Source: Poseidonocella pacifica
Lineage (GTDB): Bacteria > Pseudomonadota > Alphaproteobacteria > Rhodobacterales > Rhodobacteraceae
Length of the DNA stretch: 64,000 nucleotides
Assembly: GCF_900111875.1 (NCBI RefSeq)
Contig: NZ_FOJU01000002.1
Span: 124,001 to 188,000, forward strand
Direction of reading: 5' to 3'
Made by a program: the position numbers and the translations under genes. This document shows, one piece after another, positions 605 through 24,428 of the stretch. The notes under the pieces are model-generated. The model was given only the letters and a program-made list of their open reading frames with translations, did not search any database and was not told the DNA's origin. Each line of letters opens with the position of its first letter. The stretch's first letter is position 1.

Positions 605-1171
605 TCACAAGCCGGGTTGCCCGATCACCTCACGCTCCGTCACGATTAGATCGAGAGGTTGGTCTGTGGGCTCCAACGGGACATCGGCAACTTCCTGAGC
701 TGCATAGGCAAAGCCGATGGCAACCACAGGACCGTTCGCGCGCAACCGCTCCAGTGTTCGGTCGTAAAAACCTCCGCCGTACCCGAGGCGCCCGCCCGCG
801 CGGTTGAATGCCAGCAGTGGAACGACCAGCACTTCCGGCACCAGAAGGCGCTCCTCCTGCGGAACCAATGTCCCGAATGTGCCCTCGACCAGCGGCGATT
901 CAGGCTCCCACACGGCGAATTCCAAAGGCTCGCCCTTGGCTCGGATGACCGGAACGCCCACGGGGCCCCATTCTGCAGCCTTCTTCATAGCTGGGCGTGG
1001 ATCGATTTCAGTGCGGATGGGTAGGAAACCCGAGAGCGGTTTGCCCCGGTACGCGCGTAGCACGTCGTCCAGAAGGGCCGCGGCATCCCCGTCTCCCTTG
1101 GCATGAGCTTCTGCTCGCGCAGCAAAGGCCGCCTTGCGCGCCGCAGCCTTTCGCGCGTTCAGAGTATCCAA
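605..1171 (-). CDS. 5-formyltetrahydrofolate cyclo-ligase
   Basis: ATP-dependent conversion of 5-formyl-THF to 5,10-methenyl-THF, which returns a storage or inhibitory folate to one-carbon metabolism in the cytoplasm. The 188-residue protein is of normal family length. It begins with the basic N-terminal helix typical of the family (RKAAARKAAFAARAEAHAKG) and carries the nucleotide-binding signature GGRLGYGGGFYDRTLERLRA near residues 126-145. The start overlaps the end of mgtE by 13 bases, so translation is probably coupled. The YmdB-like gene follows on the same strand. Identification rests on the C-terminal glycine-rich signature and is secure. Confidence 0.9.
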   Translation of the reverse strand: MDTLNARKAAARKAAFAARAEAHAKGDGDAAALLDDVLRAYRGKPLSGFLPIRTEIDPRPAMKKAAEWGPVGVPVIRAKGEPLEFAVWEPESPLVEGTFGTLVPQEERLLVPEVLVVPLLAFNRAGGRLGYGGGFYDRTLERLRANGPVVAIGFAYAAQEVADVPLEPTDQPLDLIVTEREVIGQPGL

Positions 1172-2547
1172 AGAACGGCCAATCCGAGGAATGCGAAGAA
1201 GCCAACCACATCCGTAACGGTCGTGACGAAGGACCCGGACGCGAGAGCGGGATCGACCCCGACCTTATCCAGAAGCACCGGGATCACGGTCCCGGCGAGC
1301 CCTGCGATGACCAAGTTTATCACCATGGCCGTCCCGATGACATATCCCAGAACCGGCGAGCCGAACCATGCGATCCCAATCAGCGCCATGATCACCGCAA
1401 AGGCGATCCCGTTGAACAAACCGACCAAGACCTCTCGCCGTATGACGCGCCATACGTTGGATCCGGTAAGGTCGCGCGTAGCGATCGATCGAACCGCAAC
1501 GGTCAGGGATTGCGTGCCTGCGTTGCCACCCATCGAGGCGACGATTGGCATCAACACCGCAAGCGCCACAATCTGTGTAAGGGCGTCCTCGAACATGGCG
1601 ATCACGAGCGATGCGATGATCGCCGTGACGAGATTGACCGCGAGCCACGGAAACCGCTGTTTCATCGTCTCAAACACACGGTCATTCAGGCTACCGTCCC
1701 CCACGCCCGCGAGGCGCAAGATATCCTCCTCATGCTCTTCATCGAGCACGGCCATGGCGTCATCGATCGTGATCTGACCGACAAGACGACCTTCGGCATC
1801 GACCACGGGCGCGGAAATGAGGTGATACTGGTTGAAGGCATAGGCCACATCCCCTTCGTATTCGCTGACGGGGATCGCCTTGAAGACCGTTTCGGCCAGC
1901 TCCGCGAGCGGCTTGCTGCGCGGTGACGACATGATCTTGCCCAAGGTGACATTGGCAATGGGATGCATCCGTGGGTCGATCAGCACCACATGGTAGAATT
2001 GCTCGGGGAGGTCATCATGGCCCCGAAGATAATCGATGGCGTCGCCCACGGTCCAATGCTCGGGTGCCATGACAACCTCGCGCTGCATCAGTCGCCCAGC
2101 GGAGAATTCAGGATAGCTTAGCGCCTGCTCCACCGCGACCCGGTCAGTCTGATCGAGGGCGCCAAGAATGGCGGTTTGCTGCTCCGCGTCGAGATCTTCG
2201 ACAAGATCCACGACATCATCGCTGTCGAGTTCCCGGACTGCCTCGGCCAACACCTCGGGGCGCAGGATGGAGATCACTTCCTCACGGATGCTCTCATCAA
2301 GCTCCGACAGGATGCTGCCGTCCATTTCGTGATGATAAAGATCGAGCAGCGCCTTGCGTTCGGAGGAATCGATTTGCTCCAAAAGGTCGGCGATATCTGC
2401 GGCATGGAGAGGTTCCATCAGCAGCGTCAGCCGCTCGGCATCCCCTTCCTCCACAGCCGCGAGGATCGCGGAGACATCGCGGGGCCTCAGGGCATAGGTG
2501 CCGTCCTCTTCAACCTCGGGCTCGTGCGTTTCGGCAGGTTCCGTCAT
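1159..2547 (-). CDS. mgtE: magnesium transporter MgtE
   Basis: Inner-membrane Mg2+ channel of the MgtE/SLC41 family, 462 residues. The architecture is complete. An N-terminal helical MgtE_N domain (about residues 20-130, rich in LLEQI and VVDLVEDLDAEQQ) is followed by two CBS domains (about 130-265) that sense cytosolic Mg2+. The C-terminal half (about 285-460) has five membrane segments, with the pore signature MPIVASMGGNAGTQSLTVAVR. An in-frame start lies 13 codons further upstream, but the ATG at 2547 (MTEPAETHEPE) has a GGAG ribosome site 7-8 bases before it. It is the first gene of a unit with the cyclo-ligase and the YmdB-like gene. Confidence 0.93.
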   Translation of the reverse strand: MTEPAETHEPEVEEDGTYALRPRDVSAILAAVEEGDAERLTLLMEPLHAADIADLLEQIDSSERKALLDLYHHEMDGSILSELDESIREEVISILRPEVLAEAVRELDSDDVVDLVEDLDAEQQTAILGALDQTDRVAVEQALSYPEFSAGRLMQREVVMAPEHWTVGDAIDYLRGHDDLPEQFYHVVLIDPRMHPIANVTLGKIMSSPRSKPLAELAETVFKAIPVSEYEGDVAYAFNQYHLISAPVVDAEGRLVGQITIDDAMAVLDEEHEEDILRLAGVGDGSLNDRVFETMKQRFPWLAVNLVTAIIASLVIAMFEDALTQIVALAVLMPIVASMGGNAGTQSLTVAVRSIATRDLTGSNVWRVIRREVLVGLFNGIAFAVIMALIGIAWFGSPVLGYVIGTAMVINLVIAGLAGTVIPVLLDKVGVDPALASGSFVTTVTDVVGFFAFLGLAVLWIL

Positions 2548-18462: not shown

Positions 18463-20081
18463 TGGGACCCGAGCACTCCGGTTCGAACGGAATAGTTCAC
18501 CGCGAGCCCATAATCTGGATCATCGTCACTATCGACCATGAGGTGCCCGGCCTTGGACAGCAACCGGTGACAATCCCGCGACAGGTGTCGTAGTTGAATG
18601 CGCTTGCCCGCCGCGTTGTACTTGCCGGCGATAGCCTCGATCGCCTGCAATGCGGATTGATCGACCACACGGCTATCGGCAAAGTCGACGATCACGATCT
18701 CCGGGTCGCCGGTCACGTCGAAAAGTTCGGCAAAGCCGTCAGACGATCCAAAGAAGAGCGGGCCCTGAACCTTGTAGACCTTGGCACCATCTTCGTGCTC
18801 CACCTTGGCATGGATGCGCTTCGCGTTATTCCATGCATAGGCCAGCGCGGAGACGATCACCCCGACTACGACGGCAATCGCAAGGTCATACTGAACGGTT
18901 ACAACAGTGACCAGAATGATGACGAGGGAATCCGCGAGAGGAACTTTGCGCAGGATCTTGAAGGAGTTCCACGCGAAGGTACCGATCACCACCATGAACA
19001 TGACACCCACGAGCGCCGCGAGCGGGATCTGTTCGATCACAGGCGAAGCGAAGAGAATGAAGATCAGCAGGAACAATGCGGCGGCAACGCCAGCGATCCG
19101 CGTGCGACCACCCGATTTCACGTTGATCATGGACTGACCAATCATGGCGCAGCCCCCCATGCCACCGAAGAACCCCGTTACCGTGTTGGCGACGCCCTGC
19201 GCGACGCATTCCTGACTTGCGCCACCGCGCTGGCCTGTGATGTCGCCGACGAGGTTGAGCGTAAGCAAGCTTTCGATCAGGCCGATCGCCGCAAGAATGA
19301 TTGCGTAGGGGAGGATAATCTCAAAGGTTTCCCAGTTCAGTGGAACCATGGGGATGTGAAACGGAGGCAACCCGCCCTGAATTGATGCCATATCACCGAC
19401 GCGCGGCACATCGAGGCCGAACCCGATCACGACAGCAGCGACGATGCCAATACCCGCCAGCGGTGCCGGGATGACTTTGGTGATGCGCGGCGTGACCCAG
19501 ATCAGTGCCATTGTAAGCGCGACAAGACCGAGCGTTACCCATAGCTGGATGCCCGACAGCCATTCGCCCCCACCAGTGCCGTGCCCCGTGACCTCAACGG
19601 ATCCCGGCACCTTGAACTGCGAAAGCTGGGCCAGAAAAATGACGATGGCGAGCCCGTTCACGAAACCAAGCATGACGGGATGTGGCACTAGCCGAATGAA
19701 TTTCCCCCACTGCATGACGCCCGCAAAAATTTGCAGCAGCCCCATCAGGACCACGGTCGCAAAGAGGTATTCGACGCCGTGTTGTGCAACGAGGCTCACC
19801 ATGACGACCGCGAGGGCCCCGGTTGCGCCGGAGATCATCCCTGGCCGTCCGCCGAAGACGGCCGTGATCAAACCAACGATGAAGGCCGCATAAAGGCCGA
19901 CGAGCGGGTGAACACCTGCGACGAAAGCAAAGGCCACCGCTTCGGGCACCAGCGCCAGAGCAACGGTAAGGCCGGAAAGTAGTTCGATGCGCATGCGGCC
20001 AACGGTGAGCGGTTCACCGGGCATCCAGCGAAGATCGTTGACAAGACGGTTGGCTACGGAGGCCAGAAGGACTCGGGTCAA
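18459..20081 (-). CDS. SulP-family inorganic anion transporter with STAS domain
   Basis: Inner-membrane transporter of 540 residues in the SulP/SLC26 family (sulfate, bicarbonate or other anions, usually with Na+ or H+). It has about 10-14 membrane segments (ELLSGLTVALALVPEAVAFA at the start; GMISGATGALAVVMVSLVAQ; LTLNLVGDITGQRGGASQEC; FGGMGGCAMIGQSMINVKSG). A cytoplasmic STAS domain covers about residues 425-520 (VDFADSRVVDQSALQAIEAI). The start is a TTG at 20081; the next ATG (20024, MPGEPL) is also possible. Anion specificity cannot be read from sequence. A second, STAS-less SulP lies at 59495. Confidence 0.9.
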   Translation of the reverse strand: MTRVLLASVANRLVNDLRWMPGEPLTVGRMRIELLSGLTVALALVPEAVAFAFVAGVHPLVGLYAAFIVGLITAVFGGRPGMISGATGALAVVMVSLVAQHGVEYLFATVVLMGLLQIFAGVMQWGKFIRLVPHPVMLGFVNGLAIVIFLAQLSQFKVPGSVEVTGHGTGGGEWLSGIQLWVTLGLVALTMALIWVTPRITKVIPAPLAGIGIVAAVVIGFGLDVPRVGDMASIQGGLPPFHIPMVPLNWETFEIILPYAIILAAIGLIESLLTLNLVGDITGQRGGASQECVAQGVANTVTGFFGGMGGCAMIGQSMINVKSGGRTRIAGVAAALFLLIFILFASPVIEQIPLAALVGVMFMVVIGTFAWNSFKILRKVPLADSLVIILVTVVTVQYDLAIAVVVGVIVSALAYAWNNAKRIHAKVEHEDGAKVYKVQGPLFFGSSDGFAELFDVTGDPEIVIVDFADSRVVDQSALQAIEAIAGKYNAAGKRIQLRHLSRDCHRLLSKAGHLMVDSDDDPDYGLAVNYSVRTGVLGSH

Positions 20082-20173
20082 TGGCTTTTCTCGTATGTTG
20101 TATCTTGGGGGTTTGGATGCGCCTTACGGCATTGCGGCGTGATTGACCAGACGCGGAAGCGGGAAGGTTCGAT

Positions 20174-20204
20174 GTGTGTTGCGCAACGCACGCTCCTGCG
20201 TTGC
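20174..20204 (+). promoter_or_regulatory. overlapping inverted repeats in the mtnP leader
   Basis: An 18-base near-perfect palindrome centred on GTTGCGCAAC (20178-20187) shares its right arm with a second repeat, GCAACGCA-N6-TGCGTTGC (20183-20204). The three half-sites can form two mutually exclusive hairpins. They lie 55-85 bases before the mtnP ATG, so an operator or attenuator is possible. Confidence 0.4.
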
Positions 20205-20258
20205 TATTGTGACAGGGCAAAGGCACAAAGACCGTGTCAGGATCAAGGAGACACCAGC

Positions 20259-21131
20259 ATGACGGACACGATGATCGGGGTGATCGGCGGCTCTGGCCTG
20301 TATGAGATTGACGGGCTCGAAGGGGCAAGCTGGATCGAGGTGGAAAGCCCCTGGGGCGATCCGTCGGATTCGATCCTGACCGGACGGCTCGACGGAGTGC
20401 CGATGGCTTTTCTGCCTCGTCATGGGCGCGGGCATGTGCATTCGCCCTCCACGGTACCTTACTGCGCCAACATCGACGCGCTGAAGCGGATCGGGGTCAC
20501 CGATGTGATTTCCGTATCGGCATGCGGCAGTTTCCGTGAGGACATGGCACCGGGTGATTTCGTGATCGTGGATCAATTCATTGATCGAACCTTTGCCCGC
20601 GAGAAAAGCTTCTTCGGGACAGGCCTTGTGGCGCATGTGTCCTTGGCTCACCCCACCTGCGAGCGGTTAAGCGCAGCCTGCGAGGCGAGCGCGCGGGATG
20701 CTGGCATCACGGTTCATCGCGGAGGCACTTACCTTTGCATGGAAGGTCCACAATTCTCTTCGGTCGCAGAATCCAAGCTCTATCGTGACGTCTGGAACTG
20801 CGATGTCATTGGAATGACCAATATGCCCGAAGCGAAACTCGCCCGCGAAGCCGAGCTTTGCTATGCCTCCGTGGCGATGATCACCGATTACGACAGTTGG
20901 CACCCCGAGCACGGCGCGGTCGATATCAACGAGATTATCCGCACCCTCTCGGGCAACGCGGACAAGGGCCGCGAGTTGGTTCAGCGCTTGCCCGCGCTCC
21001 TTGGGAAGGACCGTGCACCTTGCCCCCATGGATGTGACCGCGCGCTGGAGTTTGCCATAATGACAGCTCCGGAGAAGCGAGACGTTGACCTTGTGGCGCG
21101 TCTCGATGCCGTAGCCGGGCGCGTTCTTTAG
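20259..21131 (+). CDS. mtnP: S-methyl-5'-thioadenosine phosphorylase
   Basis: Phosphorolysis of methylthioadenosine to adenine and methylthioribose-1-phosphate, recycling a by-product of polyamine and SAM metabolism. 290 residues, nucleoside phosphorylase fold: IGVIGGSGLYEIDGLEG at the N-terminus, FLPRHGRGHVHSPSTVPYCA, SVSACGSFREDMAPGDFVI, GGTYLCMEGPQFSSVAESK and MTNMPEAKLAREAELCYASV. MTAP rather than purine nucleoside phosphorylase is indicated by these motifs. The ATG at 20259 has AAGGAG 8 bases upstream; the open frame reaches 20139 without a better start. The adenine it makes can be used by Apt, encoded 1.2 kb downstream. Confidence 0.94.
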   Translation: MTDTMIGVIGGSGLYEIDGLEGASWIEVESPWGDPSDSILTGRLDGVPMAFLPRHGRGHVHSPSTVPYCANIDALKRIGVTDVISVSACGSFREDMAPGDFVIVDQFIDRTFAREKSFFGTGLVAHVSLAHPTCERLSAACEASARDAGITVHRGGTYLCMEGPQFSSVAESKLYRDVWNCDVIGMTNMPEAKLAREAELCYASVAMITDYDSWHPEHGAVDINEIIRTLSGNADKGRELVQRLPALLGKDRAPCPHGCDRALEFAIMTAPEKRDVDLVARLDAVAGRVL

Positions 21132-21880
21132 GAATCGCTCGGGACCGAGATGGATTGCGGAAGCGGGCGGCGGTCGATCAGGTTGAAATAGCGCCGAACC
21201 CGTACATCGGAGGGCCATCCGTCATCTTCGCAGAGTTGCTGTTCCGCGATCTTAGCCGCTTCGGTGTAAGGCACATTGCAGCTCTCATAGGTCTCAGGTG
21301 GGACGAATACCGGATGGCGCCGAAGCTGGACCCCAAGCGCCCGCCGAACCGGCCGGGTTATACGCTCCCCGTCTTGCATCACCTGCATTTCGCGGGTTTC
21401 TATGAGCGAGGCGCTGACAACACAGACCCGCTCTCCGAATGACATGGATCGGGCGGTGTCGCACTCGCAATTCTTCTGATCGTTGTACTCAAACACCCGT
21501 CGCGTCAGGCTGCTCGTGCCACCAACAAAGGGCAAACCGCCCAATTCGGTCACTGCGGAAATCTTGTCCTCATCAACCAGTCCGAATCGGCTCGATATGG
21601 CCGCGGCCCAGTGAACGTAGCGGGAGGCCCGATTATAGTAGACATCTGCGGCGTCCTGCATCTCAATGTCAGACGGGTCTACAATTGCATCGCAAAGCTT
21701 GGCCAGCCCGCCCCCTTTCTTGAGCACGACCACGTCACCCGCGCTGAGGGGCTGTGCCCCGGGCGCGGAGGTAAAGGCGTTCGCAGCGGCAATATCCTTT
21801 GGCGTGATGTCGGCGAACCAAATCGCCAAAAGAACGAACACCACCAAGCCTGCGGCGGCTATTCCAATTTTTTTGAACAT
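21128..21880 (-). CDS. membrane-anchored protein of unknown function
   Basis: Not recognised. 250 residues: a short basic N-terminus and one hydrophobic segment (MFKKIGIAAAGLVVFVLLAI) are followed by a ~230-residue domain that should face the periplasm. It has several cysteines (LCDAI, KNCECD, RVCVVSAS, ESCNVP, QLCEDD), which could form disulfides, and a duplicated R-R/V-R basic region near the end. The ATG at 21880 follows a GGGAGAG ribosome site. It lies 10 bases after the Cys-rich peptide gene on the same strand, so the two are probably one transcript. It shares TTAG with mtnP, both stop codons lying in that tetramer. Confidence 0.7.
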   Translation of the reverse strand: MFKKIGIAAAGLVVFVLLAIWFADITPKDIAAANAFTSAPGAQPLSAGDVVVLKKGGGLAKLCDAIVDPSDIEMQDAADVYYNRASRYVHWAAAISSRFGLVDEDKISAVTELGGLPFVGGTSSLTRRVFEYNDQKNCECDTARSMSFGERVCVVSASLIETREMQVMQDGERITRPVRRALGVQLRRHPVFVPPETYESCNVPYTEAAKIAEQQLCEDDGWPSDVRVRRYFNLIDRRPLPQSISVPSDS

Positions 21881-21890
21881 GACGCTCTCC

Positions 21891-22010
21891 CTAGCTGCTT
21901 GGGCAGCAGAGATTACCGCAAACAAAGTGGGTGGCGGGGCAAGTCACGGCAGCAGCAGATTGCACAGACAGCAAAAGCAGCACACCGGTTACGCACAGAA
22001 ATCGTTTCAT
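21891..22010 (-). CDS. small exported Cys-rich peptide (39 residues)
   Basis: Short gene read from the ATG at 22010, which has GAGG 6 bases upstream. The product has a textbook signal peptide (KRF, then LCVTGVLLLLSVQSAAA) and a predicted mature part of only 18 residues, VTCPATHFVCGNLCCPSS, with four cysteines spaced C-x6-C-x3-CC. This spacing would suit two disulfides or a metal site. The reading frame extends to 22145, but the upstream part has no ribosome site or export signal. It is followed after 10 bases by the anchored protein gene. Function is unknown; it may be a structural or signalling peptide, or a processed leader. Confidence 0.6.
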   Translation of the reverse strand: MKRFLCVTGVLLLLSVQSAAAVTCPATHFVCGNLCCPSS

Positions 22011-22343
22011 TGGGAACCTCAAAAAAATTACGGGATACAATGGGTGGACCATAGCATAATCGCCGCGCGGATTGGTTAACGTAACGTTAACCTGCGAATT
22101 GGCAGGTTTCGGAGGCCGCTGAAAGACAGGTTTTGCAAGATGCAAAGTGAGTGAGTTCGTGAAACTTCTACCTCACGGTGTCTTTGCTATCGCTTCCATC
22201 AAGCGTGTATCCCCTCGCTCTCGGCCAACTGGCTGGCGACCATGCAGGCACCCTCTGCGCGTTGCGTACTGCGATTCGAAAAGCTTGCACGGTGGCGCTT
22301 GATACGCCAAACCGAACTTTGGTCGCTAAACTGGAGCCGTTCC
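22011..22343. other. 333-base non-coding region between the Cys-rich peptide gene and apt
   Basis: Divergent intergenic region. It holds the 19-base inverted repeat at 22074-22092 and an AT-rich leader of the peptide gene (22011-22060). It also has about 200 bases before apt with no clear promoter match. No tRNA or stable RNA structure is evident. Open frames here have no ribosome sites. Confidence 0.7.
22074..22092. promoter_or_regulatory. GGTTAACG-N3-CGTTAACC inverted repeat, candidate operator
   Basis: Perfect 8-base arms around TAA, 64-82 bases before the ATG of the Cys-rich peptide gene. On the minus strand it is followed by TATGCT/TATGGT at about 15-20 bases, so it would overlap a -35 region. 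It looks like a repressor or activator site for the two-gene unknown unit. Confidence 0.45.
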
Positions 22344-22883
22344 ATGCCCAACACCAAAACCGTCAAGGACTACATCCGCACCATCGTGGACTTTCCGCAC
22401 GAAGGGATCATGTTCCGGGACGTGACTACGCTGTTCGCCGATCCGCGCGGCTTTCGAATGGCGATCGACCAGATGCTTCACCCCTATGCCGGCGAACGGA
22501 TCGACAAGGTTGTTGGCCTTGAGGCGAGGGGCTTCATTCTGGGCGGTGCCATCGCCCATCAGCTTTCGGTGGGTTTCGTTCCCATACGGAAAAAGGGCAA
22601 ACTCCCCGGCACCACCATCAGCCAAGACTATAAGCTCGAATACGGCGAAGCGATCGTGGAGGTTCACGACGACGCCATCATCGCGGGCGAGAAAATCTTG
22701 GTGGTTGATGACCTTTTGGCCACTGGCGGCACGGCGGAGGCGGGAATAAAGCTCGTCGAACGTCTCGGTGGAGAGATCGTCGGCTGTGCCTTCGTGATCG
22801 ACTTGCCCGACCTCGGCGGTCGTGCCCGTCTTGAGGCTCTTGGCATGGATGTTCACGCGCTCTGCGAATTCGACGGCCACTGA
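22344..22883 (+). CDS. apt: adenine phosphoribosyltransferase
   Basis: Converts adenine and PRPP to AMP in one step, the main adenine salvage enzyme. 179 residues, type I phosphoribosyltransferase fold: [20 protein letters not shown] at the start, [30 protein letters not shown] and the PRPP loop [17 protein letters not shown]. The ATG at 22344 follows TGGAG at 8 bases. The reading frame is open 34 codons further upstream, but that extension has no family similarity. It pairs functionally with mtnP, which releases adenine. A strong terminator follows. Confidence 0.95.
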
Positions 22884-22976
22884 TCCCATTAGGGATTCCT
22901 TAACCGGTTCATAGCAAAGTAACCTTGCCGACCGGGATGCGGCACCTAATACGGTCCATCGAACGGGGACCGACCC

Positions 22977-23016
22977 AAGCGCCTCGCCTGTGAAACGGGC
23001 GGGGCGTTTCCTTTAG
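22977..23016 (+). terminator. intrinsic terminator after apt
   Basis: A 12-base stem with two G-T pairs (arms starting at 22977 and ending near 23009) and an 8-9 base loop is followed by TTTCCTTT. It lies between the convergent apt and FAD oxidoreductase genes and may serve both strands. Confidence 0.7.
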
Positions 23017-24428
23017 GTTCGCAGTATGACGCCCGGATTCATGATCCCATCGGGATCGAGAGCTGACTTGATGGCACGCATGGCGAGCAATTTGGTTGGG
23101 TCCGCGTACCGCTCCAGATCTTCGACCTTCAACCGCCCGATGCCATGCTCGGCACTTACCGATCCACCGAGCGCATGCGTGATGTCGTGTACGGTCCGCT
23201 TGATATCGGCCCGCTCCGATTCGTGCTCGGCCCTGCTTCGTCCAGCCACGGGAAAGACGTTGTAGTGCAGGTTGCCATCACCGACGTGGCCAAAGCAATT
23301 GATCCGATACGTCGCGATTTTGGCCAAGGCTGGTCCTGCCCTTTCGATGAACTCGGGAATCGCCCCCAGCGGCAGGGAAATGTCGTGGCTGCTGATCGCA
23401 CCGATATGCCGGTTGGCCGCTGGAATGTTCTCTCGGACTGCCCAGAAATCCGAGCGCTGCGCCTCTGACCTTGCGATCAGCCCGTCGCGGACGAGGCCCG
23501 CCTCGGTGGCATCCAGGAATATGGCTTCCAGGGCCGCGGTAGTATCTGATCCGCGGCCAAGGCCAAGGTCCAAAAGGACCGACCACTCGGGATGGGCCGT
23601 GAAAGGTAGACGCAGTTGGGGCAATGCTTCGGAGAGGAAGTCAAAGCTTTGGCGGTGGATGATCTCGAACGCGCTGACCCCCTCGCCCACGTGATCACGC
23701 GCCAGTTGCAAGAGCTGGAGCGCCGCGACGGGGCTCTCGACTACAAGAAACGCCGTGCCCTGCTCGGCGGGTTGGGCAAATAGTTCCAATGCCGCAGCTG
23801 TGATGAACCCCAGCGTACCTTCGGAGCCGATCATAAGATCCCGCAGGTCGTAACCAGTATTGTCCTTTCGAAGGCGGGTAAGCCCGTGCCAAACCTCCCC
23901 GGTGGGCAAAACCACTTCCAGCCCAAGGCAGAGCCGTCGCGCGTTCCCATACCGCAAGACGTTCAGGCCCCCTGCGTTCGTCGCCAGATTCCCGCCGATC
24001 CGGGCAGACCCCTTGGCCGCGAGGGACAAGGGAAAGAGCCGGTCAACCGCTTCGGCCGCCGTATGGATATCCTGAAGGATGGCGCCCGCCTCAACGACCA
24101 TCACATTCTCGTTCGGTAGAACTTCCCGGATGGCGGTCATGCGTTCTGAAGACAGGATGATCGGGATCGTCCCACCTTCGGCCACTTGCCCGCCGACAAG
24201 CCCGGTGCCTCCTCCATAGGGAACGACCGCGAGTTTCTCGGCGTTGGCATACCGCAGGATCGTGGAAACCTCCGCGGCGCTGCTGGGAGCAAGCAGAAGA
24301 CCACCCTCGCCCTTGTAGCGCCCTCTCGGCTCTTCGAGATAGGCAGGCGTAATGTCACGGAAAACCGCAGCGGGAAGTCTTTCGGCGAGGTCGTCGCGAT
24401 GACGATCCGATACGGATACAAGTGGCAT
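23013..24428 (-). CDS. FAD-binding oxidoreductase (D-2-hydroxyacid / D-lactate dehydrogenase type)
   Basis: GlcD/DLD-like flavoenzyme of 471 residues, oxidising a D-2-hydroxy acid such as D-lactate, glycolate or 2-hydroxyglutarate. An N-terminal PCMH-type FAD domain (VPYGGGTGLVGGQVAEGG, GSARIGGNLATNAGGLNVLR, GYDLRDLMIGSEGTLGFITA) is followed by the C-terminal FAD-oxidase domain. The latter contains NCFGHVGDGNLHYNVFP and SVSAEHGIGRLK, with metal- or substrate-binding histidines. It is a single-subunit enzyme without a GlcE or GlcF partner nearby, so D-lactate or D-2-hydroxyglutarate seem more likely than glycolate. The exact substrate is inference. It is 51 bases downstream of the MBL-fold gene's end. 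Confidence 0.88.
   Translation of the reverse strand: MPLVSVSDRHRDDLAERLPAAVFRDITPAYLEEPRGRYKGEGGLLLAPSSAAEVSTILRYANAEKLAVVPYGGGTGLVGGQVAEGGTIPIILSSERMTAIREVLPNENVMVVEAGAILQDIHTAAEAVDRLFPLSLAAKGSARIGGNLATNAGGLNVLRYGNARRLCLGLEVVLPTGEVWHGLTRLRKDNTGYDLRDLMIGSEGTLGFITAAALELFAQPAEQGTAFLVVESPVAALQLLQLARDHVGEGVSAFEIIHRQSFDFLSEALPQLRLPFTAHPEWSVLLDLGLGRGSDTTAALEAIFLDATEAGLVRDGLIARSEAQRSDFWAVRENIPAANRHIGAISSHDISLPLGAIPEFIERAGPALAKIATYRINCFGHVGDGNLHYNVFPVAGRSRAEHESERADIKRTVHDITHALGGSVSAEHGIGRLKVEDLERYADPTKLLAMRAIKSALDPDGIMNPGVILRT

Follow-up and report, generated by a model that had tools for sequence, protein, structure and literature searches.

We found that a small exported, cysteine-rich peptide and a membrane-anchored partner protein are encoded by two genes of Rhodobacteraceae sensu lato (Roseobacteraceae/Paracoccaceae) that form an operon, are linked in translation and are inherited together. 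Strong purifying selection acts on the mature peptide, whereas the leader is free to drift. The operon lies in a 64,000-nucleotide stretch of Poseidonocella pacifica DNA, referred to here as the window, where the peptide gene of 39 codons occupies positions 21891–22010 of the minus strand. Its translation, MKRFLCVTGVLLLLSVQSAAAVTCPATHFVCGNLCCPSS followed by a stop codon, comprises a Sec-type leader of approximately residues 1–21 and the mature sequence VTCPATHFVCGNLCCPSS, in which the cysteines are spaced C-x6-C-x3-CC, and its ATG is preceded by the G-rich ribosome site ttgaggttccca. The gene of the 250-residue partner (21128–21880, minus strand) follows after a spacer of 10 nt (21881–21890), its Shine-Dalgarno sequence GGGAGAG beginning inside the TAG stop codon of the peptide gene; across 17 loci this spacer measured 0–15 nt. 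The original prediction, made from the letters of the window, had thus placed both genes correctly, and the good ribosome site and the cysteine spacing that it reported were as described. Outside the unit, the convergent neighbour on the plus strand (20139–21131) is an open reading frame that we take, by eye, to belong to the methylthioadenosine phosphorylase family (mtnP-like), and the divergent one (22344–22883, plus strand) is presumably adenine phosphoribosyltransferase (apt), likewise assigned by eye. At 21128–21131 the partner gene and its mtnP-like neighbour meet tail to tail, with an overlap of 4 nt at their stop codons. An Rfam scan of positions 20000–24000 gave no match, and the hairpin GCTGC-CCAA-GCAGC that closes the window's peptide gene was dismissed, as the other loci did not conserve it.

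Alignment of 18 peptides revealed that the mature sequence was conserved over 17 loci beyond that of the window, with the consensus CPxTH-x-[PV]-CG-x(2-3)-CC-[SP]-[RK]; C24, P25, C31, C35 and C36 did not vary and T27, H28 and G32 hardly did, in contrast to a leader of variable length and sequence. The preprotein had 36–49 amino acids in 17 of the 18 loci and 66 in the remaining one, and the conserved motif fell within its last 15–17 residues. Codon counts in seven pairs, consistent in trend although each value is rough, with only some 10 synonymous sites per pair in the mature part, gave pN/pS of 0.09, 0.04, 0.08, 0.14, 0.20, 0.34 and 0.65 for the mature part and 0.97, 0.65, 0.64, 0.59, 0.59, 0.93 and 0.69 for the leader of the same pairs. 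The mature values were therefore 0.04–0.20 in the five nearest pairs and 0.34–0.65 in two further ones, the seventh pair, with 0.65, including the variant peptide of genome G341. A leader that is kept only loosely, joined to a mature part preserved nearly letter by letter, is the pattern of a functional exported peptide. An unconserved peptide frame in relatives that keep the partner had been named at the outset as the finding that would speak against the unit; the opposite was observed, given the conservation of the mature part in 17 further loci, the low pN/pS, and the independent peptide and partner searches, which landed side by side. The G341 variant (locus L029, 1366–1485, plus strand), with the mature sequence CPDGYKSCGNACCPR, has retained the four cysteines and carries Gly-Tyr in place of Thr-His, indicating that Thr-His is not indispensable.

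The distribution of the unit was examined in 394 genomes, nearly all from different genera of the family, in which a DNA pattern for the peptide and a profile for the partner were run separately, and these two independent searches converged on identical loci. The profile detected the partner in 8 of the 394 genera, and in all 8 the peptide lay directly upstream. Seven genomes (G000, G001, G125, G188, G226, G255 and G318) yielded both genes by both searches, and G341 was added by the partner profile, its upstream variant CPDGYKSCGNACCPR being unable to match the DNA pattern. The congener G001 carries both genes, its partner being 46% identical to that of the window. A ninth row of the profile search (G335, E 0.007) was regarded as noise, and pattern matches in G062, G137 and G342:C71 were dismissed for want of a credible exported peptide. 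In a second scan, a stricter peptide pattern was applied to 85,000 species represented by one genome each, which is not a full census since TGC was required at the first cysteine codon; it returned 22 matches, 12 of them in frame with a leader and all 12 with the partner immediately downstream. These 12 were Rhodobacteraceae-type (Shimia, Salipiger, Mangrovicoccus, Albimonas, Sedimentitalea, Roseivivax, Poseidonocella and two without a genus name), and the remaining 10, in Caballeronia, Burkholderia, Streptomyces and others, had no in-frame leader and were attributed to chance. A class-wide search of 385 alphaproteobacterial genomes returned the window's own copy only, and a degenerate-peptide scan of genome contigs with the partner alone confirmed no relative. 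Among marine bacteria of the roseobacter type, the unit is carried by a few percent.

The co-occurrence that the original prediction had proposed to check was borne out, as the peptide was directly upstream of 17 of the 17 partner genes examined and a partner was present for 17 of the 18 peptide genes. Moreover, the spacing type of the peptide (second cysteine and CC separated by 3 or 4 residues) tracked the partner tree, as expected from joint inheritance: the 3-residue group required 2 changes on that tree against 5.9 after shuffling, and none of 500 shuffles reached as few. The single exception was G342, where an intact peptide was present, the partner was looked for and not found, and LuxR-type genes occupied its expected place. 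At this locus (L023), the peptide gene (1492–1608, minus strand) and a LuxR-type gene (689–1486, plus strand) converge, their ends 6 nt apart, and a divergent LysE-type exporter gene lies upstream, as in several partner-bearing genomes. The retained LysE-type neighbour suggests that a rearrangement removed the partner, and the persistence of the peptide indicates that it does not strictly depend on the partner. In most genomes the locus lies in one ordinary chromosomal region together with apt, mtnP, the LysE-type exporter and an FAD oxidase; all these neighbours, and the LuxR genes, are presumed identities that we assigned by eye.

The partner was originally described as having one membrane anchor and several cysteines, and we indeed found a single N-terminal hydrophobic helix (residues 2–23 in the model), ahead of a predicted periplasmic domain, and six cysteines in the window protein. 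The helix is common to the members, which range down to 15% identity with the window protein, and the cysteines can be sorted further: C63, C138, C153 and C217 are invariant in 17 of 17 partners, while C140 and C199 are both present in 6 (the window, L003, L004, L035, L037 and L006) and both absent in 11. Because the cysteine numbers are even and C140 and C199 co-vary as a pair, disulfides in the partner, and with them a topology that puts its domain in the periplasm, are strongly indicated by the alignment. Pfam and NCBIfam scans of the partner and of the peptide found no credible family, a PDB sequence search with the partner profile found no match, and a PADLOC scan of the 17 partners gave nothing convincing; a PDB sequence match for two joined copies of the mature peptide motif had an E of only 2.1 and was put down to chance. 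Gasdermin models, too, were matched by none of the 17 partners at E up to 0.1 (Pfam) or 1 (PADLOC). In the libraries tested, then, no described family includes either protein, and both had also gone unrecognised at first.

What had been missed at that point was a gasdermin-like fold of the partner, suggested by structure models. The AlphaFold model of the window partner had a pLDDT of 85.8 and a pTM of 0.76, and that of the G341 partner, which is 19% identical to the window protein, a pLDDT of 87.6, both being built on an identical set of 17 sequences. In structural comparison, with Z values up to 7.1 that lie within the range unrelated models can give, gasdermins took ranks 1–21 for the window model (Z 7.1–4.5), followed by perfringolysin, pneumolysin and complement proteins, and ranks 1–19 for the G341 model (Z 6.5–4.8), followed by CDC/MACPF proteins; other folds reached Z 2.9 or less. 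The aligned ranges extended from about residue 25–28, just past the membrane helix, to about 200–225 of the models, and from residue 4–7 to about 230–260 of the pore-forming domains, the gasdermin matches being at 4–5 Å and their best Z, 7.1 and 6.5, falling below the threshold of Z 8 of the comparison tool. Foldseek gave a best E of 0.07 for the window model and a best gasdermin E of 0.27 for the G341 model, for which two phage-tail-like chains ranked higher; the gasdermin rows had TM-scores of 0.31 or lower, and a comparison with viral structures gave nothing credible. That the two models agree and that other folds follow only after a gap speaks for a genuine resemblance, and the absolute Z values, the weak Foldseek values and the alignment common to both models call for caution. 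We consider a gasdermin/MACPF-CDC-like fold of the partner domain probable rather than proven, and even a correct fold is no demonstration of function.

Among known systems, bacterial gasdermins (bGSDM; Vitiosangium 7n51, Bradyrhizobium 7n50 and Runella 7n52) provided the best structural matches of the two partner models and are of similar size. Both have an N-terminal membrane-anchoring element, which is palmitate in bGSDM and a membrane helix in the partner, and a short peptide is the regulatory element, C-terminal and in cis in bGSDM and, by our reading, separately encoded and exported here. The differences are nevertheless considerable, since the partner is predicted to be periplasmic and disulfide-bonded and has neither a Pfam nor a PADLOC match. 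A conserved N-terminal cysteine of the palmitoylated type is absent from the alignment of 17 partners, the membrane helix standing there instead, and no activating protease gene was recognised among the neighbours of the loci that we assigned by eye. The apparent CtrA box at the operon (see below) likewise differs from a defence-island setting. In addition, the second hairpin region was very short in several of the 17 aligned members, which makes membrane insertion doubtful and argues against a standard pore. The Trichoplax gasdermin (TrichoGSDM, 8jyv/8jyw), also among the top structural matches, is a single gasdermin domain of 250 residues controlled by disulfides (PMC12547243). It is, however, a eukaryotic homodimer with intermolecular disulfides and without a companion peptide, whereas the partner has conserved cysteines of its own and a membrane tether.

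The perfect inverted repeat that had been noticed upstream of the operon, GGTTAACG-TAA-CGTTAACC, was confirmed as exact at 22074–22092, about 80 nt before the peptide start, although its identity as a candidate CtrA box had gone unrecognised. Within 22075–22091, both strands of the repeat carry TTAA-N7-TTAAC exactly, which is the consensus applied to CtrA sites of Dinoroseobacter shibae (PMC4046655). The 3.62-Mb genome holds five exact places of this consensus, one of them before the peptide-partner operon, and the other four (L057, L059, L060 and L061, on contigs 3, 5, 6 and 9) precede, by about 49–228 nt, ChpT, a luxR-luxI pair, a PAS-domain protein and a CckA homologue. The PAS-domain gene, which adjoins a PilS/RegB-like kinase gene, possibly encodes DivL. 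CtrA boxes in promoters of such kinds of genes are reported for D. shibae (PMC4046655). The reversed control pattern had 12 matches in the genome, so the number of sites is in itself not enriched and the argument rests on their locations. When conservation of the repeat was examined across loci, TTAA-N7-TTAA with at most one mismatch was found within 120 nt in 6 of the 18 peptide loci against 0.66 expected from shuffling, with none of 300 shuffles as high; the box was missing from the remaining loci, for instance in Shimia, and so CtrA control is probably lineage-specific. A CtrA box at the operon is strongly indicated by these sites, and in the window's lineage the operon is apparently transcribed from a CtrA-controlled promoter. 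A GTGGTA element located about 30–60 nt before the peptide start is common to L003, L033, L035, L043 and L052, and may belong to a shared promoter, even where a CtrA box is not seen.

Since a finished exported peptide and a tethered partner are inherited as a unit, the simplest reading is that the peptide acts on the partner. By the scheme that we favour, the first gene would yield a preprotein of about 40 amino acids whose Sec leader is removed, releasing a peptide of about 15–25 residues with four cysteines and the conserved Thr-His that would be active outside the cytoplasm in its finished form. The second gene would give a periplasmic protein tethered to the inner membrane and held by two or three disulfides. 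We infer that the peptide binds the partner domain in trans and sets its state, in the role that a short inhibitory peptide at the C-terminus has in bacterial gasdermins, and that its thiols, including the vicinal CC, make this clamp sensitive to redox or metal; inhibition, redox sensing and any membrane activity would be consequences of the same scheme. Gasdermin inhibition by a short peptide has precedent, as in bacterial gasdermins a short peptide at the C-terminus wraps around the domain and keeps it inactive (PMC12547243, PMC10989679). The idea of the original prediction, a secreted peptide with disulfides and a membrane partner dedicated to it, is supported as regards the pairing, while a disulfide in the peptide is deduced from its cysteines. 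That an exported, disulfide-held peptide has a gasdermin-like protein, tethered in the periplasm, as its target in trans is a tentative proposal, to which we give less than even weight. Its extension to a CtrA-controlled two-component gasdermin-like system of the periplasm, in which a separate, redox-sensitive Cys4 micro-peptide inhibits the tethered protein for controlled envelope permeabilisation (e.g. in differentiation, gene-transfer-agent release or altruistic lysis), is quite improbable.

Other explanations have to be weighed against action of the peptide on a gasdermin-like partner. The invariant Cys4, the nearly invariant Thr-His, the terminal vicinal CC and the strong purifying selection would suit a metal- or thiol-handling pair, in which the peptide is a metallopeptide or thiol carrier whose ligand would be Cu, Zn or something else, and the partner a non-permeabilising periplasmic docking or receptor protein, and its retention in G342 without the partner fits such a role. 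However, a single histidine and four cysteines could equally be structural, among the neighbours assigned by eye we recognised no gene for metal transport or under metal control, and the upstream box is CtrA-like, so that we hold this explanation possible yet doubtful. A small exported ORF directly upstream of another gene, with cysteines near its C-terminus, spacers of 0–15 nt and, in the window, a Shine-Dalgarno sequence overlapping the stop codon, also recalls CutF/CruR (DUF2946), small exported Cys-containing ORFs placed directly before the gene that they regulate (PMC9973294, PMC9426467). By this reading, translation of the peptide ORF would sense copper or another ligand and thereby control translation of the partner gene, the peptide itself being functionless. 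In CutF/CruR, a CxxxC or CXXC motif is combined with a C-terminal Pro-rich or RAPP stalling motif at a fixed distance (PMC9973294, PMC9426467), the CruR motifs lying 45 residues apart, whereas none of the 18 aligned peptides has a CxxxC/CXXC motif, far from a stalling end or otherwise, or a Pro-rich or RAPP end. The 17 folded junctions had no common structure at the partner ribosome site (mean z −0.5, lowest −1.7), unlike the conserved stem-loop that hides the downstream ribosome site in CutF, and no metal genes were recognised downstream of the peptide. The ribosome tunnel holds about 30–40 residues. In so short a preprotein, with the motif in the last 15–17 residues, the motif would still be in the tunnel when translation ends, and the selected mature peptide is thus too short for sensing while nascent. 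As, in addition, the G342 peptide persists without the downstream gene, control by the nascent chain is very unlikely and the least likely of the readings.

The scattered occurrence of the unit (in 8 of 394 genera), the strict linkage of its genes and the modelled likeness of the partner to pore-forming proteins would be compatible with a toxin-immunity pair, either an exported antibacterial peptide with a protective partner or a toxic partner with the peptide as its antidote. Near-invariance of the peptide between genera, where a diversifying one might be looked for, speaks against this, as do the ordinary chromosomal setting in most genomes, the unconvincing PADLOC result and the fact that we recognised neither an exporter gene nor a second toxin gene nearby; we regard such a pair as very unlikely. 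A further reading is a signal between cells or at the cell surface: the anchored protein would recognise a secreted peptide under CtrA/quorum regulation and so direct differentiation or motility decisions. The exact CtrA boxes of the genome precede only CtrA-relay genes, luxR-luxI and the peptide-partner operon, and two LuxR-type genes adjoin the peptide in G342, which would agree with signalling. On the other hand, the partner has one N-terminal helix and lacks a recognisable cytoplasmic signalling domain, and a peptide nearly invariant between genera would carry little identity information, making a signal improbable, if not to the same degree as a toxin-immunity pair. Peptide action in trans on the tethered partner remains the reading that we tentatively prefer.

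Exported proteins of fewer than 50 residues are easily omitted by gene finders. We call the system new because there is no family match and because the features of gasdermins (sequence, protease, palmitoyl cysteine) and of CutF/CruR (motifs, stem-loop) were not found in it; a literature search on a periplasmic gasdermin-like protein found no report under the terms tried. A confirmed gasdermin fold would tie the pair to the known gasdermins rather than set it apart. The putative CtrA site groups the peptide-partner operon with cell-differentiation and quorum genes. If the predicted fold is true, these bacteria would possess a gasdermin relative outside the cytoplasm, with its peptide companion encoded apart, and even if the fold is wrong, the operon encodes a peptide and a partner not described before, in which the residues worth testing are few.
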